Position numbers and translations under genes: made by a program
The notes under the pieces: model-generated
Seen by the model: only the letters and a program-made list of their open reading frames with translations
Told to the model about the DNA's origin: nothing
Databases searched by the model: none
In this document: positions 5,557-22,703 of the stretch, piece by piece
Layout: every line of letters begins with the position of its first letter
Position numbering within the stretch: the first letter of the stretch is position 1
From: a virus
Length of the DNA stretch: 22,896 nt
IMG/VR virus record: IMGVR_UViG_3300021980_000006
Location: 1-22,896 of that record
Reading direction: 5' to 3' (one strand)

Positions 5557-5573
5557 AAGCAATTGAATTGCAC
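5557..5573 (-). promoter_or_regulatory. Operator-like repeat upstream of the head-unit promoter
   Basis: GTGCAATTCAATTGCTT on the minus strand; the core GCAA-N5-TTGC is exact. It lies just past the stop of the basic protein gene. It is six bases upstream of TTGACC. A weak alternative promoter, TTGTAT with TAAATC 17 bases on, would place it in a spacer, but the TTGACC promoter is stronger. Confidence 0.45.
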
Positions 5574-5965
5574 TATACAATTACCCCTTTTAGGAGTTTT
5601 CTGAACTGAATCCTTTTAAAGGAAGTCGGCATGCTTAGAACTAATTTTTCTATGCCTGCAAAGAATTCTCCCTTTATTTCTCCTTTAAAAATAAGAGTTT
5701 TTCCGTTTCTTTCTTCACGTTCTTTTGAGCTAAGTAATAGAGTGTAAAGAATGGACTTTACGAAAATGAAAGGGACTACCCTGCGTGCCTTTGTTTCAAA
5801 ATACTTCCACTTTAAGGTCAATTCCAGAAAGTCATTTGGTAATTCCAGCCTAAGGAGGGGGTTTTCTCTACCTTTCTCTATGATAATTCTGTTTTTAAAC
5901 ACCCTTTTTCCCTTGGCTACAGAACGACCAGCTCTTTTCTCCACGATTAATGTGTAGAAAGTCAT
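5573..5965 (-). CDS. Basic hypothetical protein
   Basis: This is a 130-residue, strongly basic protein (pattern of Lys/Arg with alternating hydrophobics, such as KGKRVFKNRIIIEKGRENPL and FKRIQFRKLLKGVIV). ATG 5965 has an excellent AAAGGAGGCAAAAA site, so the start is convincing although it lies 71 bases inside the methyltransferase gene in another frame. An exact 12-bp palindrome AAGCACGTGCTT (5980-5991) abuts that Shine-Dalgarno. A middle hydrophobic stretch (VVPFIFVKSILYTLLL) is probably core rather than membrane. Family unrecognised. It is the last gene before the terminator and promoter that separate the head unit. Confidence 0.65.
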   Translation of the reverse strand: MTFYTLIVEKRAGRSVAKGKRVFKNRIIIEKGRENPLLRLELPNDFLELTLKWKYFETKARRVVPFIFVKSILYTLLLSSKEREERNGKTLIFKGEIKGEFFAGIEKLVLSMPTSFKRIQFRKLLKGVIV

Positions 5966-6977
5966 TTTTTGCCTCCTTTAAGCACGTGCTTTTAATGCTT
6001 TTTAATTGCATTAGCTTCTTTGCAATACTTTGAACTACTTGAACAGTAACGGCATTTCCTGCCATCCGATAAAGTTGAGAGTCGGATATTCCTAACTCCT
6101 TCGCTTTATAGTAGAGACTGTCAGGAAATCCTTGTAGCCGGAAACATTCCAATGGAGTGAGCCTTCTTATCCGAGAATCGTTCGTGAGATAAAGCCCTGT
6201 TTTAGCTCCCCTACCTCCGCCATTAGCCTTAAGTGTTACTGCTATTCCTTCAGAACTATAAACCCTTTCACCTTGCCCGCCTTTATTGATTAGTCCTACC
6301 CTTATAGGTTTGTCTATTACATAATTCCCATTCCAATTTGCATACTGCCGTGCCATTAAGGTTGCTGCTATTTCTCCTCCACTTTGAATATCCTTACATA
6401 TTTTTTCTTTAACCTTTGGGGGTTGGTAATAAATTCTATCTCTCTCTGAGAGAGGAAATATTTTGGGTCTGGATTTTCCTCTAAGATGTCCGATAATGAA
6501 CACCCTTTCCCTATTCTGTGGGACTCCGAAATCTTTGCTGTTAAGCACCTGCCATTCTGCATCATACCCCAGTTCATCCAGCGTCTTGAGGATGATTTCA
6601 AATGTTCTTCCTTCGTCATGACTGAGGAGTCCTTTGACGTTCTCAAGTAGTAGATATGTAGGTCTTTTAACTTTTGCAATCCGGGCAATTTCAAAGAAAA
6701 GAGTCCCTCTTGTATCTTTAAAACCTCTGCGTTTTCCAGCAATGCTGAAAGCTTGGCATGGAAATCCTGCACAGAGGATGTCAAAATCTGGTAAATCTTC
6801 TGGATTGATTTTTGTTGCGTCTTCATATTCTTCCTCCTCTTCTTTTACACTGTAGTAAGCTTTGTAAAGTTTCCTTGCCCATTTATCTATTTCACAAAAT
6901 CCTACACAGGTAAAACCTTCTCTTTCCAGTGCAATTCTGAAACCACCTATTCCTGCGAATAAGTCAAAAAATTTCAC
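5895..6977 (-). CDS. DNA (cytosine-5) methyltransferase
   Basis: This 360-residue protein has all the key motifs in order. Motif I is DLFAGIGGF (5-13), motif IV is GFPCQAFSIAG (71-81) with catalytic Cys74, and motif VI is ENVKGL (112-117). Motif VIII is QNRERVFIIG (154-163), and motifs IX/X are RLTPLECFRLQGFPDS and YRMAGNAVTVQV (303-314). The target recognition domain at about 200-265 is short (ATLMARQYANWNGNYV, GQGERVYSSEGIAVTL); the recognised site cannot be read from sequence. No restriction enzyme is nearby, so it is an orphan phage enzyme, probably protecting phage DNA or altering its expression. The start is GTG 6977 after GGAGGGAAG. A C-terminal tail of about 40 residues after motif X runs 71 bases into the next gene, possibly an added extension. 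Confidence 0.92.
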   Translation of the reverse strand: MKFFDLFAGIGGFRIALEREGFTCVGFCEIDKWARKLYKAYYSVKEEEEEYEDATKINPEDLPDFDILCAGFPCQAFSIAGKRRGFKDTRGTLFFEIARIAKVKRPTYLLLENVKGLLSHDEGRTFEIILKTLDELGYDAEWQVLNSKDFGVPQNRERVFIIGHLRGKSRPKIFPLSERDRIYYQPPKVKEKICKDIQSGGEIAATLMARQYANWNGNYVIDKPIRVGLINKGGQGERVYSSEGIAVTLKANGGGRGAKTGLYLTNDSRIRRLTPLECFRLQGFPDSLYYKAKELGISDSQLYRMAGNAVTVQVVQSIAKKLMQLKSIKSTCLKEAKNDFLHINRGEKSWSFCSQGKKGV

Positions 6978-7750
6978 CTTCCCTCCTTTATCTTTCTCAA
7001 CTCTTTCAACATCCAGTTTTTATCAATCCTTTTGGCTTGTAGCCATTCCTTTTGATTCTTGGGAGGTCTTACTCTTAGATAACACTTACAGTTGCTAAGG
7101 CATTTTGTAGTTCCGTCTCTTGGCACACAGGGAAGAGTCCACTTTGTATAAGGAGAATGTCTTTGAAGGAAAAGGCAACTTTCGCAATGTTCAGCTTTTG
7201 TCATTACCCAGTCTATTACGTACTGAGCAGGAAGGGCTTCAATTTTCCCAGCTTGATAGACAAAATCAAGAGTGTTAACGTACATCTCCCAACGCCTTTC
7301 GTAGTCCATTTTCCCAGATTTTCTTTCAAGGTCTCTTAGAAAACCGTTTAGATACTTGTACTCATGTTTCCTTGCGCCGTCCAGCCAACTTAAATCCGTT
7401 TTTTCGGGTTTTACAAAAGGCACTCCAGAGGCTTCCATTCCAAGTTCATAAGCCTTGAGATAAGTCTCTTTAAAGAGCTTTTTTATCCTAAACCTTAACT
7501 GCCCTGCATTAAGCTTGCCACTAAGGAAATCCTGTATCAACTGCCACCCTTCTTCTTTGAACTTTTCTTTTAGTCTCTTGTACTTCTTGAAAGCTCTATC
7601 CGTTGCCCTCTTTTTCTCCTTGTAGTACTCACTTCCAAGGGCAGAGAACCAAAGAGAACTCTCAGCGTCTCTCTCTGGTCTTCTTGCTTTTCTCGTTCCA
7701 ATGGTTTTGCCTTCAACAATAACCACGGGAAGAGGAAAGTCTTCTTTCAT
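6974..7750 (-). CDS. Minor head / head morphogenesis protein (Mu F-like)
   Basis: This is a 258-residue protein. The first 60 residues are basic, followed by helices. The C-terminal part has WVMTKAEHCESCLFLQRHSP, then YTKWTLPCVPRDGTTKCLSN and CKCYL (Cys at about 189, 192, 208, 217, 221 and 223). This Cys cluster with the PxTxWtLPxxPrDGxTxCxxNCxC pattern is typical of phage Mu F / SPP1 gp7-type minor head proteins. They associate with the portal and enter the head with the DNA. The presence of this family next to a T4-type portal is a mixed arrangement. ATG 7750 follows GGGGGTGAA and overlaps the dUTPase stop; its own end overlaps the methyltransferase GTG start. Confidence 0.75.
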   Translation of the reverse strand: MKEDFPLPVVIVEGKTIGTRKARRPERDAESSLWFSALGSEYYKEKKRATDRAFKKYKRLKEKFKEEGWQLIQDFLSGKLNAGQLRFRIKKLFKETYLKAYELGMEASGVPFVKPEKTDLSWLDGARKHEYKYLNGFLRDLERKSGKMDYERRWEMYVNTLDFVYQAGKIEALPAQYVIDWVMTKAEHCESCLFLQRHSPYTKWTLPCVPRDGTTKCLSNCKCYLRVRPPKNQKEWLQAKRIDKNWMLKELRKIKEGR

Positions 7751-8319
7751 TTCACCCCCGTGCTACCGAAACCTCTCTTTCCTCTTGCCGATGGAAAAAA
7801 TTCTTCAAACCGGTCAAAGATTTCTTTGTTAGCCCCTATGTAGATGGGATATTCTTTGCTGAATACCGCCTGACAAATACGGTCGCCGTGGTGGATTTCA
7901 AACGTTCCAGAAGAAAAGTTTATGAGCAATGCTTTAACGGTATCCCTGTAGTCATTGTCCACGAATCCGGGACTGTTTAAGACGGTAATTCCATACTTCC
8001 ATGCTATTCCGCTTCTCGGTCTTATGTCCATAAAACAGTTTCTCGGCATGTAAACCTTGAAACCGAGAGGAATTAAAGCTCTTCCCATCGGAGGTAAAAA
8101 GTCTTTTTTACCTTCCTTTGAAAAGTATTCCTTGTTGTCTCTGTTTCTAAAAAGGATTCCCTCGCTTAAATCTGCTTTACAATCAAGTCCGTTGGAGCTG
8201 TATTTGACAACGGGCAGAAGTTCTTCACTCTTAGCAACAATCACGATTCCTAACTCTCTTATCGTTGCACTCCAGTGTCTAAATGTATCTACGTCCTGCG
8301 GGATTGCTCTGAATTCCAT
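7747..8319 (-). CDS. dut: dUTP diphosphatase (trimeric dUTPase family)
   Basis: This 190-residue protein carries the ordered dUTPase motifs. Motif 1 is around GLDCKADL at 44-51 (divergent). Motif 2 is PRSGIAWKYGI at 101-111 and motif 3 is GFVDNDYRDTVKALLIN at 118-134, with the catalytic Asp in DNDYRD. Motif 4 is GDRICQAVF at 145-153, and motif 5 is RGKRGFGSTG at 179-188. The family hydrolyses dUTP to dUMP, keeping uracil out of DNA and supplying dUMP for dTMP synthesis. The protein is longer than the usual 150 residues because of an insertion at about 55-80. I chose ATG 8319, five bases from GGAGG; ATG 8322 is equally in frame. It shares an ATGA junction with the downstream minor head protein. 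Confidence 0.9.
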   Translation of the reverse strand: MEFRAIPQDVDTFRHWSATIRELGIVIVAKSEELLPVVKYSSNGLDCKADLSEGILFRNRDNKEYFSKEGKKDFLPPMGRALIPLGFKVYMPRNCFMDIRPRSGIAWKYGITVLNSPGFVDNDYRDTVKALLINFSSGTFEIHHGDRICQAVFSKEYPIYIGANKEIFDRFEEFFPSARGKRGFGSTGVK

Positions 8320-8513
8320 CATTCCCTCCTTCCGTAAGTTTTCTTGAACTGGTATCTCCAGACTTCAAGCTCATTAGCTGTTTCTTGGCTCAAGCTGAGG
8401 ATTTTGTAATAAAGGTCCCTGTCTTCATTTCTTAGAAAAACCCCAAGCAGTTCAACGCACTTTTCTTGCTTTTGTAGAATCTCTCTTGCTTTTTCTATTA
8501 GTTCCTTCGCCAT
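8319..8513 (-). CDS. Small helical protein
   Basis: This is a 64-residue, charged, fully helical protein (AKELIEKAREILQKQEKCVE, LYYKILSLSQETANELEVWR). The start ATG 8513 follows AAAGGAGACTGAA. Its TGA stop overlaps the start region of the dUTPase gene (GAATGATG), so translation is probably coupled. It has one cysteine and no recognised family. A helical hairpin acting as an adaptor is a plausible but unsupported reading. Confidence 0.6.
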   Translation of the reverse strand: MAKELIEKAREILQKQEKCVELLGVFLRNEDRDLYYKILSLSQETANELEVWRYQFKKTYGRRE

Positions 8514-8514
8514 T

Positions 8515-8937
8515 TCAGTCTCCTTTTACGAGTCGTTCATAATACTGCAAATATCTTGCATCCTTTATTTCCTCAAATTCGCTTATAGGTAAGTAAATTC
8601 TTCTTTCAGCTCTCTCCTTGAAGAAGAGGACAAAACCTTTGCTGAAGAACTTTTCTACTTCTGCTATGAAGACAGAGCCGTTAAAGAGAATGACAGCTCT
8701 CTTAGCTCCTCTGAGCTGAGCTTTTTTGAGAAGTTCGTAAGGGAAGCCGAAACTCATAGTCTTTTGGTGTATTCCGTTGCCGTTCTCTTTCTTGATGATT
8801 TCCTCTCCGAAGAGTCTTGCTATTTTCCTAACTTTCTTCTTTGTGTCGCACTTTAGCTCTAAGAAACAGTAGCCGTTTACGCTTATGTAGTATCTATTCT
8901 CGTCTATGTCCCTAAATTCCACAGCAACTACTGCCAT
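8515..8937 (-). CDS. Hypothetical protein
   Basis: This is a 140-residue protein, basic and beta-rich (VEFRDIDENRYYISVNGYCF, AKRAVILFNGSVFIAEVEKF, ERRIYLPISEFEEI) with one central helix. ATG 8937 follows AGAGGTCCAGAA. There is no membrane segment or catalytic motif, and I do not recognise the family. The preceding Cys-rich gene ends 11 bases upstream and the following small gene starts directly after its stop, so it is embedded in the same transcript. Confidence 0.6.
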   Translation of the reverse strand: MAVVAVEFRDIDENRYYISVNGYCFLELKCDTKKKVRKIARLFGEEIIKKENGNGIHQKTMSFGFPYELLKKAQLRGAKRAVILFNGSVFIAEVEKFFSKGFVLFFKERAERRIYLPISEFEEIKDARYLQYYERLVKGD

Positions 8938-8948
8938 TTCTGGACCTC

Positions 8949-9170
8949 TTAAGTTGTTTTTACTGGCTCATAGCTTTGGCACTCTACTACTCTGACTTCT
9001 GGAAGCTTTTCATCGCAACTCTTTTCGCATCGCTCACACAAGTTGATAGGCTCAAAGTCTTCACAACCTACATTTTCTTCTGCCATTAAAGTCCTCCAGC
9101 TGTTGTTTCCCATGGTGCAATGTCCTTGGTGATTCCATTCGCAGTATTTACAGAGCTCTTTCAGTTTCAT
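8949..9170 (-). CDS. Cysteine-rich protein with two four-Cys modules
   Basis: This is a 73-residue protein with start ATG 9170, preceded by GGAGGGAGAAG; an upstream in-frame ATG at 9200 has no site. Eight cysteines are arranged as two successive units: C7-x2-C10-x7-C18-x7-C26 followed by EDFEP, and C45-x2-C48-x3-C52-x11-C64 followed by QSYEP. The repeated end C-x-x-[FY]-E-P suggests an internal duplication of a zinc-binding finger. Alternatively the cysteines could hold an iron-sulfur centre. Role unknown; perhaps a small nucleic-acid- or protein-binding adaptor. It is in the accessory block between portal and protease genes. Confidence 0.62.
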   Translation of the reverse strand: MKLKELCKYCEWNHQGHCTMGNNSWRTLMAEENVGCEDFEPINLCERCEKSCDEKLPEVRVVECQSYEPVKTT

Positions 9171-9351
9171 CTTCTCCCTCCTCCAGAGAAAGGTTTTCAA
9201 GGTCTATCATTGCAAGTAGGGGCATGAGCAAGAGAATTACTAATAGAGCAAATATCTTGCATAAGAGATAAAATGTTTCTGTAGTTGCAGAGAGAATCTC
9301 AACGACAGCTTCTTTTGAATGCTCTTTAAGTCGCTGTAGGTACCTTTCCAT
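9148..9351 (-). CDS. Small membrane protein
   Basis: This is a 67-residue protein with GGAGGGAGCGGAAA before ATG 9351, overlapping the end of the portal gene by 26 bases. A charged N-terminal helix precedes one hydrophobic segment at about 28-49 (YLLCKIFALLVILLLMPLLA). A strongly acidic C-terminus follows (ENLSLEEGEDETE). Single-pass topology is predicted. Family unknown; size and layout would fit an accessory phage envelope protein. The next gene begins within its 3' end. Confidence 0.6.
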   Translation of the reverse strand: MERYLQRLKEHSKEAVVEILSATTETFYLLCKIFALLVILLLMPLLAMIDLENLSLEEGEDETERAL

Positions 9352-10633
9352 TTTCCGCTCCCTCCATCTTTAGAATGTGTTTAAGAACGTAGTCCTTATC
9401 AACTATCGGATTGCCTTCCTTGTCCGTAAGGCTTAAGAGCTCCTGAGCAACCTGAACCCTTTTGAGTAGGGATTCCATTCTTAGCTCTTCTTCTATGTAG
9501 TTAGGGGAATACATCGTAAGAGTAAATTCAGCGTCTTTAATGCCGTGCTTTTCAAGGTGGATTTCTATCAGCCTTTTGACGCCGTCAACAATAGCATTTT
9601 GAATGCTTTTGACAGAACGGCTGAACTGAATGGAAATTGAGGAAAGGGTTGCTCTTGTAGAAAATCCTTCTTCATTGGCAAGATAGGCTTTTGGAATTTT
9701 CAGGGCGGCAAAGAGCATTTTCTGGAAGTACTCAATATCTGCAATGTCTGCTATGTTAGAAGCTCCAGCAAGGCTTTCTACTCTTGAACCTCTACCGCCT
9801 TCAAAGACTGGGAAGTAGAAATCCTCATCTGCAGCAAGGAAATCGGGTTTTGCTACAAACTTTCCAGTTTTCGGGTCTATAAGCCTCTTCTTTTTGAACT
9901 TCTTCTTTAGCTTATCAATGAACGCTTCTGCTTTTTCTGGGGGCATGTTACCAACGTCTATGTAGAAAACCCATCTGTTTGGAGCTCTGGTAAGCCTGTA
10001 GATAACAACGGCATCCTCCATAAGTGCTAACTGCCTGTAAATTCGGCGGGCGTCCTCTAAAATAGGGTAGCCGTAAGGATAGAACTTAACGTCTTCAAGG
10101 AGTCTAAAGTGAATCATCTCGTCAGGTTTAAACTCAACCTTTTCTCCGCCGATTTTCTGTTCAAATCCTTCAAGCCTACCTTTGTCGTCTTCTTTTCTTT
10201 CTACCGTTTTAGCAGGTCTGTGGTAAAAACCAAGAACGCCTTTTCCTTCATCTGAAACAACTTCCCAGAAAGAATCTCCCAGCTTAAAGAGTTCCTTAGC
10301 AATGAAGGGACACTTTTCTTCAATCTTTATACGGTCAAAGAGCTCCTTAATTAGTTTTTCTACTTTTGGGTTTTTGCTTGAATAGCTGAATATTCTTCCT
10401 GTATCGGGGTCTCTTTGGCAACACTCATCGGTGTAAACTTTCGCTGCTGCTGCAATATACGGCATTTCCATCATCTTCTCGTATTCGGCGTATCTTTCCA
10501 TTCTGTCTGCAGAGAGGTTAAGGAGAGAGGCTAATGGAGAAGTAGTCTCGTAACTGTAACCTTTGGGTTCTGCTTCGGAAGAGCTCTCCTTGTTTCCGGA
10601 AAAGAATTTGAATAGTTCCTTAAACACAGGCAT
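9326..10633 (-). CDS. Portal protein, T4 gp20-like
   Basis: This 435-residue protein matches the T4 gp20 portal family through its central region. IYRLTRAPNRWVFYIDVGNM is close to the family's YRITRAPERRVFYIDVGNLP. After it come KAEAFIDKLKKKFKK, an LAADEDFYFPVFEGGRGSRV segment (family: EDfwlPr-eGgrgT) and an ADIEYFQKMLFAALKIPKAY clip/stem region. The family forms the 12-subunit ring at the unique capsid vertex through which DNA enters. It is slightly shorter than T4 gp20 (524 residues). The start is ATG 10633 after GAGGTAGAAA, within the preceding gene. It sits with terminase upstream and gp21- and gp23-like genes downstream, but about 5 kb of other genes separate it from the protease, unlike in T4. 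Confidence 0.9.
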   Translation of the reverse strand: MPVFKELFKFFSGNKESSSEAEPKGYSYETTSPLASLLNLSADRMERYAEYEKMMEMPYIAAAAKVYTDECCQRDPDTGRIFSYSSKNPKVEKLIKELFDRIKIEEKCPFIAKELFKLGDSFWEVVSDEGKGVLGFYHRPAKTVERKEDDKGRLEGFEQKIGGEKVEFKPDEMIHFRLLEDVKFYPYGYPILEDARRIYRQLALMEDAVVIYRLTRAPNRWVFYIDVGNMPPEKAEAFIDKLKKKFKKKRLIDPKTGKFVAKPDFLAADEDFYFPVFEGGRGSRVESLAGASNIADIADIEYFQKMLFAALKIPKAYLANEEGFSTRATLSSISIQFSRSVKSIQNAIVDGVKRLIEIHLEKHGIKDAEFTLTMYSPNYIEEELRMESLLKRVQVAQELLSLTDKEGNPIVDKDYVLKHILKMEGAENGKVPTAT

Positions 10634-11264
10634 TTTCTACCTCATGCAATTCGTTTGCATTTGATTTTAACAGAATGTAGCCTTTGCATACTCCTTCTGG
10701 TTCTATGACTTGAACTTCTATTTCGGGGTCAATTTCCTTTATCAATTCTGCAAGGCTTTTAAGCTTTTCTGGATGGATAGCGTAGTAGTCAAGGAAGTTG
10801 GCTATTATCTTAGGCTCACAAACGATAAGACCGCTCTCTTGGACGCTCAATTTTAGCCTTACGGGTTCATCTATTGAGTCAAGATATCTGTTAACTGCAA
10901 CTATTACTTCACGGCACTTTTCAACGAAGGTCTTTTGAGCCTGAGAGCTTTTAGTTTTGTGCTCTTCTCGTAGGTCGTATAGAGCTTTTCTAACACTGTC
11001 TCTAACAATTGTGCCGATAAAATCGTAGTCTATCTGTTTTTGAGACTCCAGATTTTTTAGCCTTTCTTTAAGTTCTTCGTTTTCTTTTTGGAGCTCTAAG
11101 ATTTTCTTTCTCAATACCTCCTTTTCGGCTTCATGTTGTCCTTTGAGCCATCCGTTACCCTTAACGGCTTCTACAACAATGCTTTCAACCACTTCTTTGA
11201 CACTTCCTCTCTTCTTCACGAGAGCGTTAAAAACATCTTCTGGTAAATCAATTACCACTCTCAT
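10620..11264 (-). CDS. RHH-like N-terminus plus coiled-coil protein
   Basis: This is a 214-residue protein. Residues 1-35 (MRVVIDLPEDVFNALVKKRG, then SVKEVVESIVVEAVK) match the strand-helix-helix pattern of ribbon-helix-helix DNA-binding proteins. A coiled coil follows at about 44-75 (EAEKEVLRKKILELQKENEE), and then a globular C-terminal domain of unknown type. It is preceded by its own operator-bearing promoter, so autoregulation through the GCAA-N5-TTGC element is a reasonable hypothesis. Alternatively it is a head-assembly protein, since it overlaps the portal gene by 14 bases and is the first gene of that unit. The start at ATG 11264 follows GGGAAGGACT. Family assignment of the C-terminus is open. 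Confidence 0.6.
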   Translation of the reverse strand: MRVVIDLPEDVFNALVKKRGSVKEVVESIVVEAVKGNGWLKGQHEAEKEVLRKKILELQKENEELKERLKNLESQKQIDYDFIGTIVRDSVRKALYDLREEHKTKSSQAQKTFVEKCREVIVAVNRYLDSIDEPVRLKLSVQESGLIVCEPKIIANFLDYYAIHPEKLKSLAELIKEIDPEIEVQVIEPEGVCKGYILLKSNANELHEVENACV

Positions 11265-11269
11265 AGTCC

Positions 11270-11293
11270 TTCCCGTTCATAATGCATCGGGAA
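11270..11293 (-). promoter_or_regulatory. 5'-leader hairpin including part of the ribosome binding site
   Basis: TTCCCG and CGGGAA pair (6 bp, perfect) around a 12-base loop; the 3' arm runs into the Shine-Dalgarno (GGGAAGGACT then ATG). It lies at the predicted transcript 5' end, as with the other operator promoters, and could limit translation when folded. Confidence 0.4.
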
Positions 11294-11294
11294 A

Positions 11295-11323
11295 ATAATA
11301 ATGCAAATTATTTGAATTGTCAA
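11295..11323 (-). promoter_or_regulatory. Promoter of the portal unit with embedded operator-like repeat
   Basis: TTGACA (11318-11323), a 17-base spacer ATTCAAATAATTTGCAT (11301-11317; one half-site altered) and TATTAT (11295-11300). The predicted start near 11288 to 11290 is inside the first arm of a small hairpin. It lies in the 75-base gap between the terminase and the RHH/coiled-coil gene and should drive the head-gene transcript. Confidence 0.7.
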
Positions 11324-11339: not shown

Positions 11340-13211
11340 TTAGTTGTTCCACCACCACTCTTCTTCTTCTACTTCTCCTTCATGTTCTCCCATACTCGGC
11401 TCTATCACTTTTGAAATCTGATTGTCTATAAAACAGCTATAAACTGCTCCGCACAGAGCATCTGCAACGTCCTTACTTCCATCTGGCGGATGGTCAACTT
11501 TTCTACCGTCAAATTCAAGGGCAAAGAGCTCCTGCAAAAGAGGTTCATAGTGGTAGAGAATTACTCTTTGGTCAAAGAAAGCTTCTTTTAAGCTCATGTA
11601 AGGTTCTAAGGTAGCGTCAACGGAGATTCTTTCGGCGTTGTAGCCTCTCTGTTTAAACTGCTGAATGGATTCTCGGCTCTCAAATTTGTCATAAGAAATC
11701 CTTCTAACATAGAGTCCGTACTTTTCTACTATTGCATAGATAAACTCTCTTATTCTGGAAATGGGAATTTCCGACTTAGGTATTACTCTAAGAACAAAGT
11801 CAACCTCAGCAATTGGGAGTTCCTCATAATGCTCTGTCCCATCAGGGAGTAGTCTTTTTACCTTCTTAAATCCTGCAAAGTGAACCATAGCAATGCCTGT
11901 AGCATCTCCAGTAACTCCAAGGTCTATGTGGATATACCTTTTGAGACTTCTATCAAGGTTCATCTTCTCATAGTCTATCTGAATGTCTCCAAGCTCAATG
12001 GAAACTTCTTTACTAAATGGATGTTTCTTATCAGGGTCTATACACCGCAAAATGGCTTCTCTATCGTGGAAGAACGGAGCGGTAGTTAGGACAGGTCTTC
12101 CTGCTATATCCCTAATAGCCTTTTCTATGTTCCTTTCAAAGGAGAACCTGAACTCTTCCGGTACTAAAATCTGTTCAAAACCGCAGTTCTGATAAGTTTT
12201 CCCCTTGGCAATAAAACAGTCTGCACAGTTTTTTTCGCTATCAATGATTCTTGGTGGCTGGGAGAGACTTCCAAGACAAACTCTGAACCTTTTTGAGTTC
12301 TCGTAGCCGCTTTTAACATCATAAATGGCATACCTACGGATGTAGGCAAGAGGATTGCCTTTGAACTCCCTTATCATTCTTTCTGTAAAGTCTTCTGGAT
12401 ACTTAGCAGAAGAGAGAACAAGGAGCTTTCCCGGGACCCTGCCTTTTTGCTGGAATCTTGATTCCAGACGCCTGTAGAGAGAATCAAAGAGCTCTTCTGC
12501 TATGTCGTAAACCTCGTTGCCTTTTCTCTTCTGTCCCAAGAAGTTAGCCTCGTCAATCACGGCGGAAAAAACGTTCAAGGATATAGCCTCGTTACTTATC
12601 GGAAGAGGCTGGAGGATTATGTTGTTGTTAGTTCTAAGCTCTTCCTTCTTAATTTCTATCTCTCCTTCCAAGATAAAGTGCTTAAAGAAAGGACTCGCCA
12701 TAAGGTCGTTTTTGAGCCTATTGAAAAAGGAGGTTAGGGCGGTTTTCAGGTTGACTGAAAAGTTGACGAGGGCAATTTCTGTAGATGGGTCTAAGCCGTA
12801 GTATTCTTGGGGATTTCTGAGAATAAAAAGCTTGTAAAAGATGTAAGACATTGCTATGATGCCAAAAGTCGTTTTCCCCCATCCTATAGAGCCTGTGAGC
12901 AGGGCTATTATGTAGTCGCCGTTAAAGAAATTCTCAAGCTCTTTAAGGAGCTTAGGTCTTATGTATTTTGCTTTGTTTAAGTAGTAGGGAGAGAGAACAA
13001 ATTCCCTTATAGAGACAGGCTTGAATCTATAGTCTGCGTATCGTATCTGGTCCAATAAAGGAGAGTAACCATACTTTTGAATTTCCTGAAGGATTTCTAT
13101 AAGCAAGTCAATTGCGTCTGGAGAAAGATCAAGTTCTTCTACGATTCTTTCAAGCTCAAAAAGTCCTTCTTTCTGAAGCCTATCAACTGCTTGAACGATA
13201 GAGTCCTTCAT
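11340..13211 (-). CDS. Terminase large subunit
   Basis: This 623-residue protein is the packaging motor ATPase plus nuclease. Walker A is GSIGWGKT at 107-114, Walker B is VFSAVIDEA near 214-222, and the coupling motif is LLVLSSAKYP near 264-272. The C-terminal RNase H-like nuclease begins with YIHIDLGVTGDATGIAM (catalytic Asp near 430) and ends with a DHPPDGSKDVADALCGAVYS motif carrying the last acidic residues. An insertion at about 329-344 has CADCFIAKGKTYQNC, a possible metal-binding loop between the two domains that is not a standard terminase feature. The start is ATG 13211, overlapping the stop of the small membrane protein. The acidic, Trp-rich C-terminus (EGEVEEEEWWWNN) may contact the portal. 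Confidence 0.93.
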   Translation of the reverse strand: MKDSIVQAVDRLQKEGLFELERIVEELDLSPDAIDLLIEILQEIQKYGYSPLLDQIRYADYRFKPVSIREFVLSPYYLNKAKYIRPKLLKELENFFNGDYIIALLTGSIGWGKTTFGIIAMSYIFYKLFILRNPQEYYGLDPSTEIALVNFSVNLKTALTSFFNRLKNDLMASPFFKHFILEGEIEIKKEELRTNNNIILQPLPISNEAISLNVFSAVIDEANFLGQKRKGNEVYDIAEELFDSLYRRLESRFQQKGRVPGKLLVLSSAKYPEDFTERMIREFKGNPLAYIRRYAIYDVKSGYENSKRFRVCLGSLSQPPRIIDSEKNCADCFIAKGKTYQNCGFEQILVPEEFRFSFERNIEKAIRDIAGRPVLTTAPFFHDREAILRCIDPDKKHPFSKEVSIELGDIQIDYEKMNLDRSLKRYIHIDLGVTGDATGIAMVHFAGFKKVKRLLPDGTEHYEELPIAEVDFVLRVIPKSEIPISRIREFIYAIVEKYGLYVRRISYDKFESRESIQQFKQRGYNAERISVDATLEPYMSLKEAFFDQRVILYHYEPLLQELFALEFDGRKVDHPPDGSKDVADALCGAVYSCFIDNQISKVIEPSMGEHEGEVEEEEWWWNN

Positions 13212-15214: not shown

Positions 15215-16636
15215 TTAATCAAACTCAATTCCAAAGTCTTTGAGGAAGGAGGTTGAAAGGACTCCGTTTACTGTTCCTGTTTTTGGATTCGTTTGGGCTT
15301 TTAGGAGCTCTACTGAAGGTAGGAATACGGCGTAAGGGTCTCCGTTTTCGTCAACAAGGATGTTTCCTTTTTCGTCTCTTACTTTCCAGACAGTTAGGTC
15401 TTCAAAGAGGTTGTGTCCAGCTTCCTTATGCCAGCCGTAGCGAAGAAGCTCTACAAAGTTCATGGACTTGAGAGCTTTAGACATTGCCCTGTCTATCTGG
15501 AGGCTGGAGTGGATATCCTTAAATCTTGTGAAGTATGGGAATGCAATTTGATTGCAGAGTTCTTTGGCAGTTTCTATGAATTCTGAAAGGGTGAAAAGGA
15601 AGATGTCAGACTCTTTTTTCTTACGGAGTTCATTAAGAATCATCTGGATGGTGGGGACGACTTTAGGAGAGAAGACATCTACAAGATTTTGGTAGGTTAC
15701 AACGTAGCTTCTTTCATCCTCTGGAGAGTAGTTTTCTGCCTTTATCAGAGTATTAACTTCCCATTGATAGCTTATTCTGATTTCCAAGTCTTTTGCAATC
15801 TTTTCTATCTCGTTAAAGAGTTCTGCAAGTTTTGGAAAGTTTGCGTAGACTCCTTTTCTGTTTACGTAGTAGTATTTGCTTGCCGGTGGAGATAGTTCAA
15901 GGAGTTTGAAGTCTTCTGGGATTATCTTGAGAGTTCCACCTCTGAAATTCAGAGCTCCAAAAGTTACTTCTTTTGCTCCTACCTTTTTTGCCCTTGTCAA
16001 AAGTTTTTCTATCTCTTTGAGTGTAGGGAATTGGGAATGAAGGAAAGGGACCACGTTTATTCCAGTTGGTATTCCAGCCTCATTGAGCTTGGCAACAAGC
16101 TCAAATCTCTCTTCAGGTGATAGAGATTCAGGTTCATACTTTTTCCTGTATCTATCACTTAAAGAGGTTATTGTTATCAGTCCAGCTCTCGGAGTAGACA
16201 TCTGTGTAAGAGTATTGAAGAGTTCTTTTGTGTGGATTCCTTTTGTCGTAAAGAAGAACGGGAAACCGTATCGGTCAAAAATTTCTAAAATCTGCCTTGA
16301 AATGCCTTCACAACCGGGGACGAAAATATCTGAGTTGTTAGATGCGTAAATTGGATAGCGATTCCTTAGATACCAGTCTAAGAAACTGTTAGGGTTTGGA
16401 CTTTTATCTGCCTTTTCTATTCGGGAAACTGTGGCTTTTATGAGCTCTGCAGGACTGCCGAGTCCACCTACAGAAAGGTTAAAGATTTTTTTCTTATTTA
16501 TGCAGGCAAAACAGTAGGCACAGCCTCTAAAGCACCAGCGGTAGGCTTCGTAGTTAACACCTATAGGAAATGCCGGAATAGAGCCAAAAACTGTGAAGTT
16601 GTTAGATTCTTTAAAGAAACTAACTTTCTTAGCCAA
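15215..16636 (-). CDS. Radical SAM protein of the SplB/COG1533 type
   Basis: This 473-residue protein carries the radical SAM cluster motif CFRGCAYC at residues 35-42 (CxxxCxxC), with a further Cys at 45. It continues with segments typical of the SplB-like group (COG1533): SNNSDIFVPGCEG near 100-111, FFFTTKG near 128-133, an ITITSLSDRYRKKYEPESLS segment and an AGIPTGINVVPFLHSQFP stretch. The N-terminal half is therefore a SAM-cleaving [4Fe-4S] domain; the C-terminal half is unassigned. The start is TTG 16636 preceded by GGAGGGATATC. It is followed by two tandem small basic proteins and a ParB/Srx-fold gene. The substrate is unknown; DNA lesion/base chemistry (as in spore photoproduct lyase) or modification of the adjacent peptides are both conceivable. 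A copy of the operator-like repeat is inside the gene at 15541-15557. Confidence 0.88.
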   Translation of the reverse strand: MAKKVSFFKESNNFTVFGSIPAFPIGVNYEAYRWCFRGCAYCFACINKKKIFNLSVGGLGSPAELIKATVSRIEKADKSPNPNSFLDWYLRNRYPIYASNNSDIFVPGCEGISRQILEIFDRYGFPFFFTTKGIHTKELFNTLTQMSTPRAGLITITSLSDRYRKKYEPESLSPEERFELVAKLNEAGIPTGINVVPFLHSQFPTLKEIEKLLTRAKKVGAKEVTFGALNFRGGTLKIIPEDFKLLELSPPASKYYYVNRKGVYANFPKLAELFNEIEKIAKDLEIRISYQWEVNTLIKAENYSPEDERSYVVTYQNLVDVFSPKVVPTIQMILNELRKKKESDIFLFTLSEFIETAKELCNQIAFPYFTRFKDIHSSLQIDRAMSKALKSMNFVELLRYGWHKEAGHNLFEDLTVWKVRDEKGNILVDENGDPYAVFLPSVELLKAQTNPKTGTVNGVLSTSFLKDFGIEFD

Positions 16637-16648: not shown

Positions 16649-16693
16649 AAAATAGGAAAAGGGACTAACGGGCTTTCTATTACCCGCAGTCCC
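16649..16693 (-). terminator. Terminator-like hairpin at the 5' end of the radical SAM transcript
   Basis: On the transcript, GGGACT-G-CGGG and CCCG-TT-AGTCCC pair (10 bp with an internal bulge) around a 10-base loop, followed by TTTTCCTATTTTT. It meets the criteria for an intrinsic terminator, yet it begins only a base or two after the predicted transcription start and precedes the gene's Shine-Dalgarno. It may stop read-through from the early cluster, attenuate the new transcript, or act as a 5' stabiliser. Confidence 0.65.
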
Positions 16694-16701
16694 TTGAAGA
16701 T

Positions 16702-16730
16702 ATTTTAATGCAATTAATTTGCTAAGTCAA
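16702..16730 (-). promoter_or_regulatory. Promoter of the radical SAM unit with embedded operator-like repeat
   Basis: TTGACT (16725-16730), a 17-base spacer TAGCAAATTAATTGCAT (16708-16724) that is one copy of the dispersed repeat, and TAAAAT (16702-16707). The predicted start near 16695 falls at the first base of a terminator-like hairpin. It is in the only intergenic gap before the radical SAM gene, and I see no alternative promoter. Confidence 0.7.
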
Positions 16731-17555: not shown

Positions 17556-17568
17556 CGCCTGCACCTCC

Positions 17569-17585
17569 ATGCAATTAGCTTGCTT
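17569..17585 (-). promoter_or_regulatory. Operator-like repeat at a gene junction, next to a ribosome binding site
   Basis: The minus strand reads AAGCAAGCTAATTGCAT, then GGAGGTGCAGGCG and an ATG. This is the third promoterless copy directly against a Shine-Dalgarno. The shared pattern of the three is GCAARYTAATTGCRT, then GGAGG either directly or one base later. Confidence 0.5.
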
Positions 17586-17878: not shown

Positions 17879-17890
17879 CTTGCACCTCCA

Positions 17891-17907
17891 ACGCAATTAA
17901 TTTGCCT
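17891..17907 (-). promoter_or_regulatory. Operator-like repeat at a gene junction, next to a ribosome binding site
   Basis: The minus strand reads AGGCAAATTAATTGCGT, then TGGAGGTGCAAG and the ATG of the next gene. The core GCAA-N5-TTGC is exact and the centre AAATTAATT is fully symmetric. There is no TTGAC at the -35 position, so this is the promoterless class of element. The upstream gene's stop codon is inside it. Confidence 0.5.
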
Positions 17908-18181: not shown

Positions 18182-18192
18182 GGCTCACCTCC

Positions 18193-18215
18193 ACGATTCG
18201 GGTTTTTGCCATCGT
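18193..18215 (-). promoter_or_regulatory. Conserved 5'-leader hairpin (third copy)
   Basis: Arms ACGAT and ATCGT, inner GG/CC, loop CAAAAA, and one extra C in the bulge relative to the other two copies; GGAGG follows after one base. The sequence around it, from the -10 element to the Shine-Dalgarno, is nearly the same as at 22643-22681, so promoter, operator, hairpin and ribosome binding site were duplicated as a unit. Confidence 0.5.
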
Positions 18216-18223
18216 CAAATTTC

Positions 18224-18251
18224 AATATATGCAATTACTTTGCGTTGTCAA
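18224..18251 (-). promoter_or_regulatory. Promoter with embedded operator-like repeat
   Basis: A perfect TTGACA (18246-18251) and TATATT (18224-18229) are spaced by 16 bases. The repeat ACGCAAAGTAATTGCAT (18229-18245) fills the spacer. The -35 includes the stop codon of the DUF488 gene. Predicted initiation near 18217 is just upstream of the conserved leader hairpin. It should drive the cluster of small genes from 18181 to 16748. Confidence 0.72.
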
Positions 18252-18694: not shown

Positions 18695-18736
18695 TGCTTT
18701 TCTCCTCCCTTGCAGTATTCGCAAATACCGTTAGCA

Positions 18737-19435: not shown

Positions 19436-19436
19436 C

Positions 19437-20483
19437 CTACACCTCCACGGTCTCTTTTAAGTATTTCGTAGCTATCTTAAGCAATCTATTTGCGTTTCTA
19501 ATTATGGCATCGTTACCGTTAGCAAGGGTTTTTATATCGTTAGCGATGTTGCGGATTTCCTCCATATCCTTTATCAAACCTTCGTTAGCTTGGTTTTCTA
19601 AGGACGGCAAAGGATGAGTATTTGAAGGAGCGTTTTCTGGCGTTGTAGGAGAAATAGCTTGCGGATTAAGCACCTTGTCTGCCGGTATCTCTATAGGTGG
19701 TAACTCAGGAAGAGAAATTTCCTCCAGTGCTAATTTAGTGCTCTGTTCTATCTTCTTTGCTCTTACAAACTTTTCAACATCTTCTATGGTCCACTTACTT
19801 TCAGGGTTTTCTAAGTACTCTTTTTGGTCTTCAGGCGAAAGTTTCGCAAGTTCACGGGCAACGGTTATGCTGATTTCAAATTTTTTGAGCTTTTCAAAGA
19901 TTTCAGGGATAAGGTTCAAAAGTCTCAGTCTCTTAGTTATGTGGGAATTGGAGACATTAAGTAGCTTAGCAACTTCTGTTTTCTTAAGTCCTCTCTCCTT
20001 GATAAGCCTGTCTATTAGCTCGGCTTCAAGGGCAGGGTTATCGGTTCTTTGGAAGTTTTCAATAAGGGTAAGGACGGCATCATCGCCGCCCTCTTTTACA
20101 ATGCACTTGACTGTTTCAAAGCCAAGGAGTCTTGCGGCATTTAATCTTCTTCTACCAGCAATGACCCTATATCTTCCCTCTCCTGTAGGAGCTACAAGAG
20201 GAGGCTCAAGGATTCCGTACTTTTCTACGCTTTCAAGGAAGTTTTTAGGGACATCAAATTCCGGGAAGTCAATAAGAGACAAGGGAATTTCCCTTAAAAC
20301 TTCTCTCTCCCCTTCAAGCTGGTAGATTAGCTCTTCTGCTTCAGGAATAGAAAGCTCTTTCTGCCTCTCTCTCAAAACTTTAAGAGTTTCGGGCTTTACA
20401 AGGCGTGTAATAGCGTCCTTCCCTTCAAGGATTCTGACTTTAACTCTATCTTTGACTTTGCCTTTATTCTCTATCTTTATCAT
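19437..20483 (-). CDS. ParB-family DNA-binding/CTPase-type protein
   Basis: This 348-residue protein has the full ParB layout. After an N-terminal extension of about 60 residues, the ParB/Srx-fold domain carries GEGRYRVIAGRRRLNAAR at about 101-118, matching the GERRxRA-type nucleotide-binding loop, and ENFQR at 142-146. A helix-turn-helix follows at about 166-190 (LKKTEVAKLLNVSNSHITKR). A Pro/Ser-rich linker (about 265-295) leads to a C-terminal helical region with repeated Asn/Ile that may dimerise. ParB proteins bind centromere-like sites and spread using CTP. No ParA is in view, so it could act in plasmid-like prophage partition, replication control or transcription. The start at ATG 20483 has GGAGGCAACC upstream. 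Its stop codon lies within the next gene's ribosome binding region, so the two genes are coupled. Confidence 0.85.
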   Translation of the reverse strand: MIKIENKGKVKDRVKVRILEGKDAITRLVKPETLKVLRERQKELSIPEAEELIYQLEGEREVLREIPLSLIDFPEFDVPKNFLESVEKYGILEPPLVAPTGEGRYRVIAGRRRLNAARLLGFETVKCIVKEGGDDAVLTLIENFQRTDNPALEAELIDRLIKERGLKKTEVAKLLNVSNSHITKRLRLLNLIPEIFEKLKKFEISITVARELAKLSPEDQKEYLENPESKWTIEDVEKFVRAKKIEQSTKLALEEISLPELPPIEIPADKVLNPQAISPTTPENAPSNTHPLPSLENQANEGLIKDMEEIRNIANDIKTLANGNDAIIRNANRLLKIATKYLKETVEV

Positions 20484-20503
20484 GGTTGCCTCCGGAATAT
20501 GCT

Positions 20504-20734
20504 CTACTCAAAGTTAGGGATAGGTATATTCCACTTTTCTAAGAACTCCTTGTGTTCCAATAGAATCTCCTTAGCTCCTTCTAAGACATACTTTCTGATT
20601 TCGTCTTCTGAAGGGTCTTCTATCTTTTCTTCCTTAGCGAGATTGTAAAACTGCACGATTCCAGCTAACCATACCCGCATACCTGTTTCCTTGAATTGTG
20701 TAATGTGCCACGAAAGTTCTTGATACGCTTTCAT
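20504..20734 (-). CDS. Small hypothetical protein
   Basis: This is a 76-residue, mostly helical protein with ATG preceded by GGGAGGTAGGGA. The sequence contains several Trp and Tyr residues (QELSWHITQF, MRVWLAGIVQFYNLA, LEKWNIPIPNFE) and no signal peptide or cysteine. I do not recognise the family. It lies between the sliding clamp and the ParB-like gene, with only 20 bases to the latter and its own ribosome binding site, so it is probably part of the same replication/partition transcript. Confidence 0.65.
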   Translation of the reverse strand: MKAYQELSWHITQFKETGMRVWLAGIVQFYNLAKEEKIEDPSEDEIRKYVLEGAKEILLEHKEFLEKWNIPIPNFE

Positions 20735-20820
20735 TCCCTACCTCCCTTTGTTTGAATTTTTGAGTGGTTCCTCGCCACCCATACTAATAGGGTGACGAGG
20801 AGAAGCGGAACTACTATCTT
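20731..20820 (-). other. Hydrophobic open frame after the clamp stop, possible 28-29-residue membrane peptide
   Basis: Directly after the clamp TAG, in the same frame, 29 sense codons run to a TGA that overlaps the next gene's start as ATGA. The translation is KIVVPLLLVTLLVWVARNHS followed by KIQTKGGRE: a transmembrane-like segment and then a basic tail, as in real small membrane proteins. There is no ATG, GTG or TTG at its beginning, only ATA. It would therefore need a rare start codon or amber readthrough of the clamp gene. The stop/start overlap argues for translation; the missing start argues against it. Confidence 0.25.
20770..20800 (-). other. Strong RNA hairpin between clamp and next gene
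   Basis: The transcript contains CCTCGTCACCC, a 9-base loop and GGGTGGCGAGG, an 11-bp stem with one G-U pair. No U-tract follows, so it is unlikely to be an intrinsic terminator. It could be an RNase III-type processing or stability element separating clamp translation from that of the downstream gene. It lies inside the hydrophobic open frame, so codon constraint may explain part of the pairing. Confidence 0.45.
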
Positions 20821-21942
20821 CTATACCTTCATAGGCATTGCAACGATTTTGAGTTCAGGCTCTTGGCGGCAGATAAAGAGGACAGGTTGTACGGGTTCAC
20901 CCATGAACATTTCTATTGTGTCCTTAGAGAAGGTCTTAAGAATGGTGGAAAGATAGTCTACTTGGAATCCTACGATTAACGGTTCTCTGTGGACATTAGA
21001 GCTAACTTTTAATTTGGAAGAAGCCTTTTCTTCGCCGTTGTCTGTAAGTACCTCTGCAGATATAGAAAGTTCCTCTTCAAGTATTTCAAACTTGGCGACA
21101 GGGACATCCTCTTTCTCAAAGATAACAGAAACCTCGTTTATAGCCTCTAAAAGTGTTTTCTTGCAGAACGTTATTCTGTTAGGGTTATTTTCAGGAATAA
21201 CGCTTCTCCAATCTGGATATTCCCCTTCTTCAATTTTCCAACTGAGATAGCTGTTCCCAGATTTAACAACTACTTTTGTTTCTCCACCTTTGATAATGCC
21301 TATCTCTACAACCTCATTGTCTACAAAGGACTTAAGAAGAGGAATTACTTTCCTGTGAATGTTAAACTGTAGCTCTTCCTTTGGCGGTTTTGCCCACTCT
21401 ATTTGGAAGATTCCCAAGTAATGTCCGTTAGTTGCAACAAAGTAGAGAGCGTCCTTACGGATTTCAACGTTAATACAGTTTAGGATAGCTCTTGCTTCAT
21501 CTGTAGATGCAAAAGCTTGAAGCCTTTTTGTTATGTCAAGGAAAACATCACTATCAATTTCTAAAAGAGCTTCATAATTTCTTTCAATAGAAGGGAATTC
21601 CTCAACAGGGATGTTCATAGGAATAGAAAACTCTGTTCTTCCTGTATCAACTTTAACAACTTTCCCGTTCTCTGCAAGCTCAAAAGCAATTATTTTGCCT
21701 TTTGAATTAGAGGTAATCTTTTTAAGTTTCTCAATCGGAAGTAAAAAGGCGGTTGAAGGAAACTGCTCATTCAGCTTTAATTCTACCCAGCCAGTTTGTT
21801 CAAGATTGCTGGTTGTGAGCCTTAGAATGTTACCGTCTACTTCTACCAGAACATGGGAAAGAACCGGGATGTTACCCCGGCAATCAGCAGTTTTTAAGAG
21901 CTTTTTCGTTGCCTCTAAGAGTTTTTTTCTACTTACCTCCAT
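20821..21942 (-). CDS. dnaN: DNA polymerase sliding clamp (beta subunit homologue)
   Basis: This 373-residue protein has the usual length of bacterial DnaN and resembles it along its whole length. The N-terminal helix region is followed by an IPVLSHVLVEV segment (family: NxPVLsnvLle), then a middle domain with the ATNGHYLG motif, then a C-terminal domain ending in IVAMPMKV (family ending: MPMRL). The family forms a ring-shaped dimer that tethers the replicative polymerase to DNA, so the phage supplies its own processivity factor. I place the start at ATG 21942, five bases from GGAGG; a second ATG at 21945 is possible. No clamp loader gene is in view, so it may use the host loader or lie near one outside the window. 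An operator-like repeat touches its ribosome binding site. Confidence 0.93.
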   Translation of the reverse strand: MEVSRKKLLEATKKLLKTADCRGNIPVLSHVLVEVDGNILRLTTSNLEQTGWVELKLNEQFPSTAFLLPIEKLKKITSNSKGKIIAFELAENGKVVKVDTGRTEFSIPMNIPVEEFPSIERNYEALLEIDSDVFLDITKRLQAFASTDEARAILNCINVEIRKDALYFVATNGHYLGIFQIEWAKPPKEELQFNIHRKVIPLLKSFVDNEVVEIGIIKGGETKVVVKSGNSYLSWKIEEGEYPDWRSVIPENNPNRITFCKKTLLEAINEVSVIFEKEDVPVAKFEILEEELSISAEVLTDNGEEKASSKLKVSSNVHREPLIVGFQVDYLSTILKTFSKDTIEMFMGEPVQPVLFICRQEPELKIVAMPMKV

Positions 21943-21952
21943 CATTCCCTCC

Positions 21953-21969
21953 ACGCAATTAGTTTGCTT
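21953..21969 (-). promoter_or_regulatory. Operator-like repeat abutting the clamp gene's ribosome binding site
   Basis: The minus strand reads AAGCAAACTAATTGCGT followed directly by GGAGGGAATGATG. The core GCAA-N5-TTGC is exact. There is no -35 hexamer where the promoter copies have TTGAC, so this is not a promoter. It could be a DNA roadblock or, as RNA, a 4-bp hairpin beside the Shine-Dalgarno that a translational repressor could bind. Confidence 0.5.
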
Positions 21970-21978
21970 TGTTTATGC

Positions 21979-22422
21979 TTACTCAAATTCTATTTTTATG
22001 GGATACTCACGTATTTCCCCATCTAAGAAGTGTTTATGATAATCATATTCTTCAAGAACTAACTCAATATTTTTTTCTGTTACTTCTTTTGCTTCAATGA
22101 CCCTCTCAAAAGGCTTTTCTCCAACCACTTTCTTTAACTCGTCTTGAGCTATTATGTATGCAATTCCTTTGCCTTTAGCAATTAGCATATCCGTTGTATC
22201 AATATCTGTAATAGCTGTAACATATAACCACATTTGTCCTCTTCCTTGTCCTTCAATAACGCCCCCTGTTTGTAATGAAATCCCATAAGAATTAAACTTC
22301 ATTTGTTTTTTCTCTTGCTTTTCTTCTATAGTAACTAAATATCCACCCCCAAAGACAATAACTTTCTCCACGGTAAAATCTACCAACCTTTTCTTTACTT
22401 TTATTTTTATTTTTTCTACCAT
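21979..22422 (-). CDS. Hypothetical phage protein
   Basis: This is a 147-residue protein. The start is ATG 22422, which has GGAGGGTTGCG immediately upstream; the open frame extends 28 codons further, but that part overlaps the promoter and leader hairpin. The N-terminal half is predicted beta-rich and basic (VEKIKIKVKKRLVDFTVEKV), with a Gly-rich patch (VFGGGYLV, GGVIEGQGRGQ). The C-terminal third is acidic and helical. No catalytic motif or known family is apparent. It lies between two copies of the dispersed inverted repeat, and a third copy (22158-22174) is inside its coding sequence at the codons for KGKGIAY. The next gene, the sliding clamp, starts about 36 bases after its stop, so the two are probably cotranscribed. 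Confidence 0.6.
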   Translation of the reverse strand: MVEKIKIKVKKRLVDFTVEKVIVFGGGYLVTIEEKQEKKQMKFNSYGISLQTGGVIEGQGRGQMWLYVTAITDIDTTDMLIAKGKGIAYIIAQDELKKVVGEKPFERVIEAKEVTEKNIELVLEEYDYHKHFLDGEIREYPIKIEFE

Positions 22423-22433
22423 CGCAACCCTCC

Positions 22434-22454
22434 ACGATTCGGTTTTGCCATCGT
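22434..22454 (-). promoter_or_regulatory. Conserved 5'-leader hairpin (second copy)
   Basis: Arms ACGAT and ATCGT, inner GG/CC pair, loop CAAAA; the Shine-Dalgarno GGAGG follows one base after the stem. It is nearly identical in sequence to the copies at 22647-22667 and 18193-18215 and occupies the predicted first bases of the transcript. Confidence 0.5.
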
Positions 22455-22633
22455 CAAGATTGAAATTTATGCAAATTCTTTGCATAGTCAATAAGGTTAA
22501 AGACAAGCCAAAAGGGAAATAGGAAGATTATCAGTAGGAAAGAGCAAAACCTCTCTTTTCTTTTTGCTTTCTGTCTGCGTCTAAAGAGTTCTTTTCTCAT
22601 TTCTACTTCCCAGCCACCCGGAGCTCCTGCCAT
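22454..22633 (-). CDS. Small single-pass membrane protein
   Basis: This is a 59-residue protein starting at ATG 22633, which is preceded by GGAGGTGTACAAG; an in-frame GTG 15 bases upstream lies within the ribosome binding site and is less likely. Residues about 11-27 are strongly basic (RRRQKAKRKER). A hydrophobic segment follows at about 29-47 (FCSFLLIIFLFPFWLVFNLI), so an N-in topology is predicted by the positive-inside rule. I do not recognise the family. Notably, the last dozen codons (IDYAKNLHKFQS) are the same DNA as the next promoter and its operator, so coding and regulatory sequence overlap completely there. Small early membrane proteins in phages often interfere with host functions or alter the envelope, but nothing here shows which. 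Confidence 0.6.
   Translation of the reverse strand: MAGAPGGWEVEMRKELFRRRQKAKRKERFCSFLLIIFLFPFWLVFNLIDYAKNLHKFQS
22464..22491 (-). promoter_or_regulatory. Promoter with perfect 17-bp inverted-repeat operator
   Basis: TTGACT (22486-22491) and TAAATT (22464-22469) are 16 bases apart. The spacer holds ATGCAAAGAATTTGCAT (22469-22485), a perfect 7-bp inverted repeat around three bases and the best example of the dispersed element. The predicted start near 22457 lies just before the leader hairpin. The whole promoter is inside the 3' end of the preceding small membrane protein gene. Confidence 0.68.
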
Positions 22634-22646
22634 CTTGTACACCTCC

Positions 22647-22667
22647 ACGATTCGGTTTTGCCACCGT
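22647..22667 (-). promoter_or_regulatory. Conserved 5'-leader hairpin next to the ribosome binding site
   Basis: On the transcript, arms ACGGT and ATCGT pair (one G-U wobble), GG pairs with CC, and the loop is CAAAA with a GA bulge. GGAGG follows after one base. The same hairpin occurs at 22434-22454 and 18193-18215. There the wobble position is a Watson-Crick pair (ACGAT/ATCGT), so pairing is kept although a base changed. It sits at the predicted 5' end of the mRNA. Confidence 0.5.
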
Positions 22668-22675
22668 CAAATTTC

Positions 22676-22703
22676 AATGTATGTAAACTACTTGCATTGT
22701 CAA
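22676..22703 (-). promoter_or_regulatory. Promoter with embedded 17-bp operator-like repeat
   Basis: Reading the minus strand, TTGACA (22698-22703) and TACATT (22676-22681) are 16 bases apart. The 17 bases following the -35 hexamer, ATGCAAGTAGTTTACAT (22681-22697), form an imperfect inverted repeat that matches the dispersed GCAA-N5-TTGC element. The predicted start is near 22669, right at a hairpin. It would drive the small membrane protein gene and probably the genes beyond. Confidence 0.65.

Follow-up and report, generated by a model that had tools for sequence, protein, structure and literature searches.

A 17-bp palindrome dispersed over a temperate phage of the Desulfurobacteriaceae, a probable operator set of its lysogeny repressor

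Background

Silencing of an entire genome from dispersed repressor sites has so far been documented for few phages (the L5 group, P1 and SP-beta). The mycobacteriophages L5 and Bxb1 (cluster A) carry 20–30 repressor sites per genome, few of which are in promoters; the L5 sites, known as stoperators, are asymmetric 13-mers that sit in the short gaps between genes, point in the direction of transcription and are bound by a monomer (PMC6550527, PMC9283540). In phage P1 a single repressor, C1, recognizes 22 dispersed 17-bp operators with an asymmetric consensus (PMC8546580). One prophage repressor, MrpR, a protein with a tyrosine-recombinase fold, acts in SP-beta on a repeated 15-bp element, SPBRE, reported from the intergenic regions of several promoters (PMC10516654). 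Analyzed here is a 17-bp palindrome, with core GCAA-N5-TTGC, repeated throughout the virus record IMGVR_UViG_3300021980_000006 (G000; the whole 22.9-kb stretch is called the window below), a fragment of a phage genome. In their anatomy the repeats appear to resemble the three systems above, and they are probably dispersed operators, or stoperators, recognized by a temperate phage's lysogeny repressor, as judged from sequence comparisons, that repressor being most likely of the CI/LexA type.

Three relatives, all from metagenome-assembled genomes (MAGs), were compared with the window: T, a prophage of a Thermovibrio MAG (G015, contig C8, loci L100-L103); U, a second prophage (G016, contig C13, loci L113-L115); and V, phage pieces of a Desulfurobacterium MAG (G014; L098, L104-L107).

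Results

Abundance and shape of the motif

Exact GCAA-N5-TTGC is found 20 times in the window, against 0.34 copies expected and a maximum of two in 100 shuffles. An earlier reading of the window, made from the letters alone (the sequence-only reading), had rightly put the chance expectation below one, but counted about nine exact copies; the five 17-mers it listed are all in place on the minus strand, and so are its further copy at 5557-5573 and, within 5523-5551, the half-site TTGCAT. The spacing of the half-sites is strict, N5 giving 20 matches and each of the other spacings from 0 to 15 only 0–2. The core is embedded in the 17-bp palindrome AnGCAAnTnAnTTGCnT: the outward extension TTGCnT is found in 18 of 20 sites vs. 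16 of 91 other TTGC (P 1e-9), and AnGCAA in 16 of 20 vs. 42 of 117 (P 4e-4). When the window was scanned with a position matrix trained on T and U copies alone, the 22 top hits were the 20 exact copies and two one-mismatch promoter copies (scores 21.8 to 13.2), followed by hits at 10.9, 9.1 and 6.7, that is, a gap of ~2 bits to the next two and ~6.5 bits to the rest. The motif recurs about once per 1–1.5 kb in the phage genome, in promoters as well as in gene interiors; 13–14 of the 20 exact window copies are intragenic, all frames being represented. Regular spacing of the sites was examined and is not significant.

Confinement to the prophage

The window derives from the genome of a temperate phage infecting Desulfurobacteriaceae (Aquificota), heat-loving vent bacteria. 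Its proteins have a thermophile composition, and tailed-phage genes for a major capsid protein (Gp23 family), a prohead protease (S77), a portal and a terminase are present. The capsid protein is 80–84% identical to proteins of the Desulfurobacterium and Thermovibrio MAGs and of a third family member, the genome carrying U. T is an integrated 47.5-kb prophage (contig positions 94858-142363) bounded by two 58-bp direct repeats corresponding to the 3' half of a tRNA-Leu. A repressor of the CI/LexA type is encoded at its tRNA end, and at the opposite end lies an integrase gene (named from sequence and not by a profile match). Attachment-site repeat, integrase and S24 repressor are thus those of a temperate phage in T; the window, being a fragment, does not include them.

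Copies of the motif stop at the prophage edge in both T and U. T hosts 28 exact sites (0.8 expected), which range from 96224 to 142215, and none was found in the host DNA on its flanks (20.5 kb); in the 1.7-Mb Thermovibrio genome the sites are 38 in all, about 10 of them in the ~1.65 Mb outside T. U hosts 29 sites in 43.8 kb (0.6 expected), which span positions 2561 to 42547 and end next to the repressor gene and a tRNA cluster, with none in the host genes beyond. Among 22 genomes of the family the full 17-mer is frequent in three, exactly those hosting this phage. The two prophages thus carry 28 and 29 confined copies, in the range of the ~20–30 typical of dispersed operators in a temperate phage genome, and as in such sets a minority of the copies is at promoters and most are elsewhere.

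In viral contigs, the strict promoter-operator pattern gave eight matches, none in a contig of comparable density; ParB, terminase, capsid and repressor queries detected no confirmed relatives, and the portal query only relatives ~30% identical, which lack the motif. Seven GCAA-N5-TTGC copies, vs. none of a reversed control pattern, were seen in IMGVR_UViG_3300032092_000036 (L089), a 55.6-kb viral contig whose kinship to this phage is not shown.

Promoter copies

In the window, T and U together, 19 of 237 TTGAC carry a core with 0–1 mismatches starting exactly 8 bases past the TTGAC start, vs. three such cores in total at all other offsets from -5 to +24. This offset, observed in each of the three, places the core within the 16–17-base spacer between the -35 and -10 elements. 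Six window promoters hold the motif, exact or degraded, in this position (Table 1). The sequence-only reading had assigned an identical palindrome to the spacers of five of them: the position is correct throughout, and the core is exact in the 22469, 18229 and 16708 copies, but the 22681 and 11301 copies have one mismatch each. For the sixth promoter it described a half-site in the spacer, which is there, as part of a copy with two mismatches.

A few bases from the expected transcription start, the structural and radical SAM promoters are followed by a strong hairpin which resembles a terminator and has a T tract; it precedes the first gene (16659-16695 and 5484-5515 on the minus strand of the window; homologues in L100-L102 and L113-L114). 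Nine copies from three phages show compensatory changes in 5 of 11 pairs. A promoter-proximal terminator of this kind could imply antitermination of the late genes. A second promoter class is marked by a common leader, approximately TTTGACGATGGCAAAACCGAATCGTGGAGG, at 22642-22670, 22429-22457 and 18189-18218 (minus strand), found also in T and U. No match to the early-leader pattern was found in the genome contigs. An Rfam scan gave no match.

Junction and intragenic copies

The sites at 3749, 4873, 8547, 10646 and 19481 occupy orthologous positions in all of T, U and V, others in one or two relatives. In codons for unchanged amino acids, third-codon identity to the window is higher at motif bases than elsewhere (80 vs. 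50% in T, 91 vs. 56% in U, 87 vs. 59% in V); P ranges from 0.004 to 4e-5 in the three comparisons, which, given the common ancestry of the relatives, are not independent. Third positions conserved although the amino acid is unchanged argue that the DNA site is kept besides the protein, and, by these alignments, the intragenic copies are under selection as DNA. Promoters had been regarded as the place of the motif in the sequence-only reading, which took an equal frequency in coding DNA as a sign against operators. Most copies do lie outside promoters and coding DNA is rich in them; yet coding copies far exceed chance and are under selection.

Small accessory genes between 16748 and 18181 are found in the window, in part in U, but not in T, and their junctions carry operators, as if these travelled with gene cassettes.

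Table 1. Copies of the palindrome and related features in the window
Feature	Position	Strand	Remarks
Operator, exact, intragenic	1956..1972	-	not kept in relatives
Operator, exact, intragenic (prohead protease)	3747..3763	-	kept in T, U, V
Operator, exact, intragenic	4871..4887	-	kept in T, U, V
Operator, exact, intragenic	5330..5346	-	kept in T, U
Promoter ahead of head genes, spacer holding a degraded operator (2 mismatches)	5523..5551	-	1 mismatch in T homologue
Operator, exact, intergenic, immediately upstream of the 5523-5551 promoter	5557..5573	-	
Operator, exact, intragenic	8545..8561	-	kept in T, U, V
Operator, exact, intragenic	9246..9262	-	kept in U, V
Operator, exact, near 3' end of 10620-11264, immediately ahead of portal	10644..10660	-	kept in T, U, V
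Operator, 1 mismatch, promoter spacer, ahead of 10620-11264	11301..11317	-	promoter 11295-11323; homologous promoter in U
Operator, exact, intragenic (terminase)	12344..12360	-	kept in T
Operator, exact, intragenic (terminase)	13101..13117	-	kept in U, V
Operator, exact, intragenic (radical SAM)	15541..15557	-	kept in U
Operator, exact, promoter spacer, ahead of radical SAM gene	16708..16724	-	promoter 16702-16730; conserved in T (104991) and U (30425)
Operator, exact, gene junction, directly ahead of ribosome-binding site	17569..17585	-	
Operator, exact, gene junction, directly ahead of ribosome-binding site	17891..17907	-	
Operator, exact, promoter spacer	18229..18245	-	promoter 18224-18251
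ParB-like protein (ParB_N + HTH_ParB), main rival binder	19437..20483	-	
Operator, exact, intragenic, near 3' end of ParB-like gene	19479..19495	-	kept in T, U, V
Operator, exact, intragenic (sliding clamp)	21684..21700	-	
Operator, exact, gene junction ahead of sliding-clamp gene	21953..21969	-	
Operator, exact, intragenic	22158..22174	-	
Operator, exact, promoter spacer	22469..22485	-	promoter 22464-22491
Operator, 1 mismatch, promoter spacer	22681..22697	-	promoter 22676-22703 (TTGACA ... TACATT)

Candidate repressor

The likeliest binder, to judge from domains and gene position, is a CI/LexA-type protein, combining a helix-turn-helix (HTH) with an S24 peptidase, encoded outside the window. 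In profile searches the protein from the tRNA end of T (95041-95673) matches HTH_19 (2e-10) and Peptidase_S24 (2e-21) and, among PDB profiles, T. maritima LexA (5e-20), lambda repressor and 434 repressor; the alignment columns of the Ala-Gly cleavage site and of the Ser and Lys of the dyad are invariant. The N-terminal helical HTH is predicted at high confidence, but the domain arrangement is unreliable because the overall predicted template-modelling score is only 0.48; a fold search with the model agrees with LexA/CI. The promoter of the gene is conserved in three phages and has an operator-free spacer; in the next promoter downstream a degraded copy sits in the spacer, ~25 bp from another copy located upstream. 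Three repressors found near such sites share the segment ESLNQYLY-IEKG, at which distant homologues on contigs lacking motif enrichment differ. A 72% identical repressor is found in another genome (G029), on a contig which ends 1.6 kb past the gene, so that ParB and CI are not separable there.

AGTCC-N7-GGACT was considered as the operator of a diverged repressor (G024:C37; L129 8445-8530), and discarded, being a four-copy tandem array in one place and not a dispersed set. Located at a gene start in a different phage-like element of the Desulfurobacteriaceae, it is reminiscent of an origin array.

Neighbouring genes

A T4-like head module (Gp23 capsid, S77 prohead protease, T4-type portal; 2055-4656 and 9326-10633) resides here in an integrating temperate phage of the Aquificota. 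The phage also encodes a bacterial-type DNA sliding clamp (DnaN, 20821-21954). A C5 DNA methyltransferase-like gene, named from sequence (5895-6977), has no counterpart at that place in T, and is probably an accessory gene.

Discussion

Territory ending at the prophage edges, exact placement in spacers and conservation of coding copies as DNA uphold the notion, already advanced in the sequence-only reading, that the palindromes are the operator set of one phage regulator; that reading was incomplete as to non-promoter copies and binders. The candidate binders it named, 10620-11264 and 22708-22896, are weaker than the CI/LexA-type repressor: the former is a coiled-coil protein which matches no recognized DNA-binding domain, the latter the C-terminal end of a sigma-70-like protein, the homologue of which in the relative is full length.

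Several points weigh against a CI/LexA-type operator set. The repressor is encoded outside the window, whose contig lacks that region, and a ParB-like and other DNA-binding proteins are found in the same phages, so that co-occurrence does not separate the candidates. Palindromes inside genes need not stop elongation. Strict polarity relative to transcription was tested, and a weak bias alone was seen (30 vs. 8 at the centre, derived in part from the A-rich coding strand and from shared sites).

The sites might be bound by the ParB-like protein, as dispersed palindromes at which a CTP-dependent clamp is loaded and nearby promoters are repressed, after the manner of KorB of RK2 or Noc. The protein has ParB_N and HTH_ParB domains, with a GRRRLNA stretch in the N-terminal domain, and among 136 Aquificota genomes is found in the three motif-bearing phages only; but T and U contain no ParA-family gene (no PF13614 match inside the prophages), a chromosomally integrated prophage has no need for partition, exact spacer placement suits a simple operator, and the CI-like repressor would be left with no visible operator set. 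This alternative is unlikely. Quite unlikely is that the sites serve another phage regulator of the lytic cycle, such as the HTH protein at 140208-140837 of T, a small ribbon-helix-helix-like protein beside the CI gene, a sigma-like protein, or 10620-11264. Such proteins are several and the sites span the whole lytic gene set, but domain evidence is weaker for them, the 10620-11264 and 140208 genes have an operator in their own promoters, and it is the CI-like gene which lies where expected and whose promoter is free of operators.

Very improbable is a palindrome unrelated to repression, be it a target of a host factor, of methylation or of restriction, or an RNA hairpin which affects translation at gene junctions. 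The methyltransferase-like gene and the copies immediately ahead of ribosome-binding sites would fit; host DNA is not enriched, however, the spacer copy is exactly placed and is not transcribed from its promoter, and a 4-bp RNA stem is weak in a thermophile. The resemblance of GC-N9-TTGC to the -24/-12 elements of sigma-54-like promoters was dismissed, because the site sits between good -35 and -10 elements.

If the CI/LexA-type repressor is the binder, a protein encoded beside the tRNA-Leu attachment site would bind AnGCAAnTnAnTTGCnT as a dimer in the prophage. About eight spacer copies per phage, some degraded, would block transcription start, and about twenty junction and intragenic copies would keep read-through low, as roadblocks or as extra binding or looping sites; non-promoter copies probably hinder elongation or add looping. 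The promoter of the repressor gene, having no operator, could stay on, and damage to the DNA, as the S24 peptidase domain suggests, may free all sites together. Binding by the CI-like protein, the intragenic stop of elongation and induction by cleavage are all three things we infer. Taken as a whole, the picture of a damage-cleavable CI/LexA-type repressor which silences an entire T4-like-headed prophage via ~30 palindromes, mostly coding, by elongation stop or looping, all genes being freed by one cleavage, is offered tentatively.

Comparison with known systems

No description of dispersed-operator silencing in Aquificota was found in the literature, the coverage of the search being incomplete. 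The case suggests that the strategy has evolved more than once, and that repressors of a very common class can be employed in it; such systems can be detected simply, as gapped palindromes with a territory that stops where the prophage does.

As in L5 and Bxb1, tens of sites are dispersed over a temperate phage genome, most of them off promoters; unlike there, the 17-mers are symmetric and mostly lie within genes, and the candidate repressor resembles CI/LexA and has an S24 domain. Sites of the L5 type are asymmetric and in one orientation, whereas here the core is palindromic and the bias at the centre weak; the system is not of the L5 stoperator type because its site is symmetric. Dispersed 17-bp sites are shared with P1 C1, but the P1 prophage is a plasmid and the consensus asymmetric, and the repressor proposed here belongs to the CI/LexA class. 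From MrpR/SPBRE of SP-beta the phage differs in having sites inside genes and a candidate of the HTH-S24 type.

Repressors of the lambda type are known to act on few, clustered operators. An HTH-S24 protein, a palindromic operator and paired operators at an early promoter are features in common with lambda CI, 434 repressor and LexA, but here ~30 operators are spread over the prophage. KorB of RK2 has many dispersed palindromic operators. The dispersed palindromes and the presence of a ParB-type HTH protein are reminiscent of it; in contrast, the phage is integrated, the prophage has no ParA partner, and the protein is here only a candidate binder. The strategy itself is already known; its new features appear to be the symmetry of the site, the large number of intragenic copies and the cleavable type of the candidate repressor.

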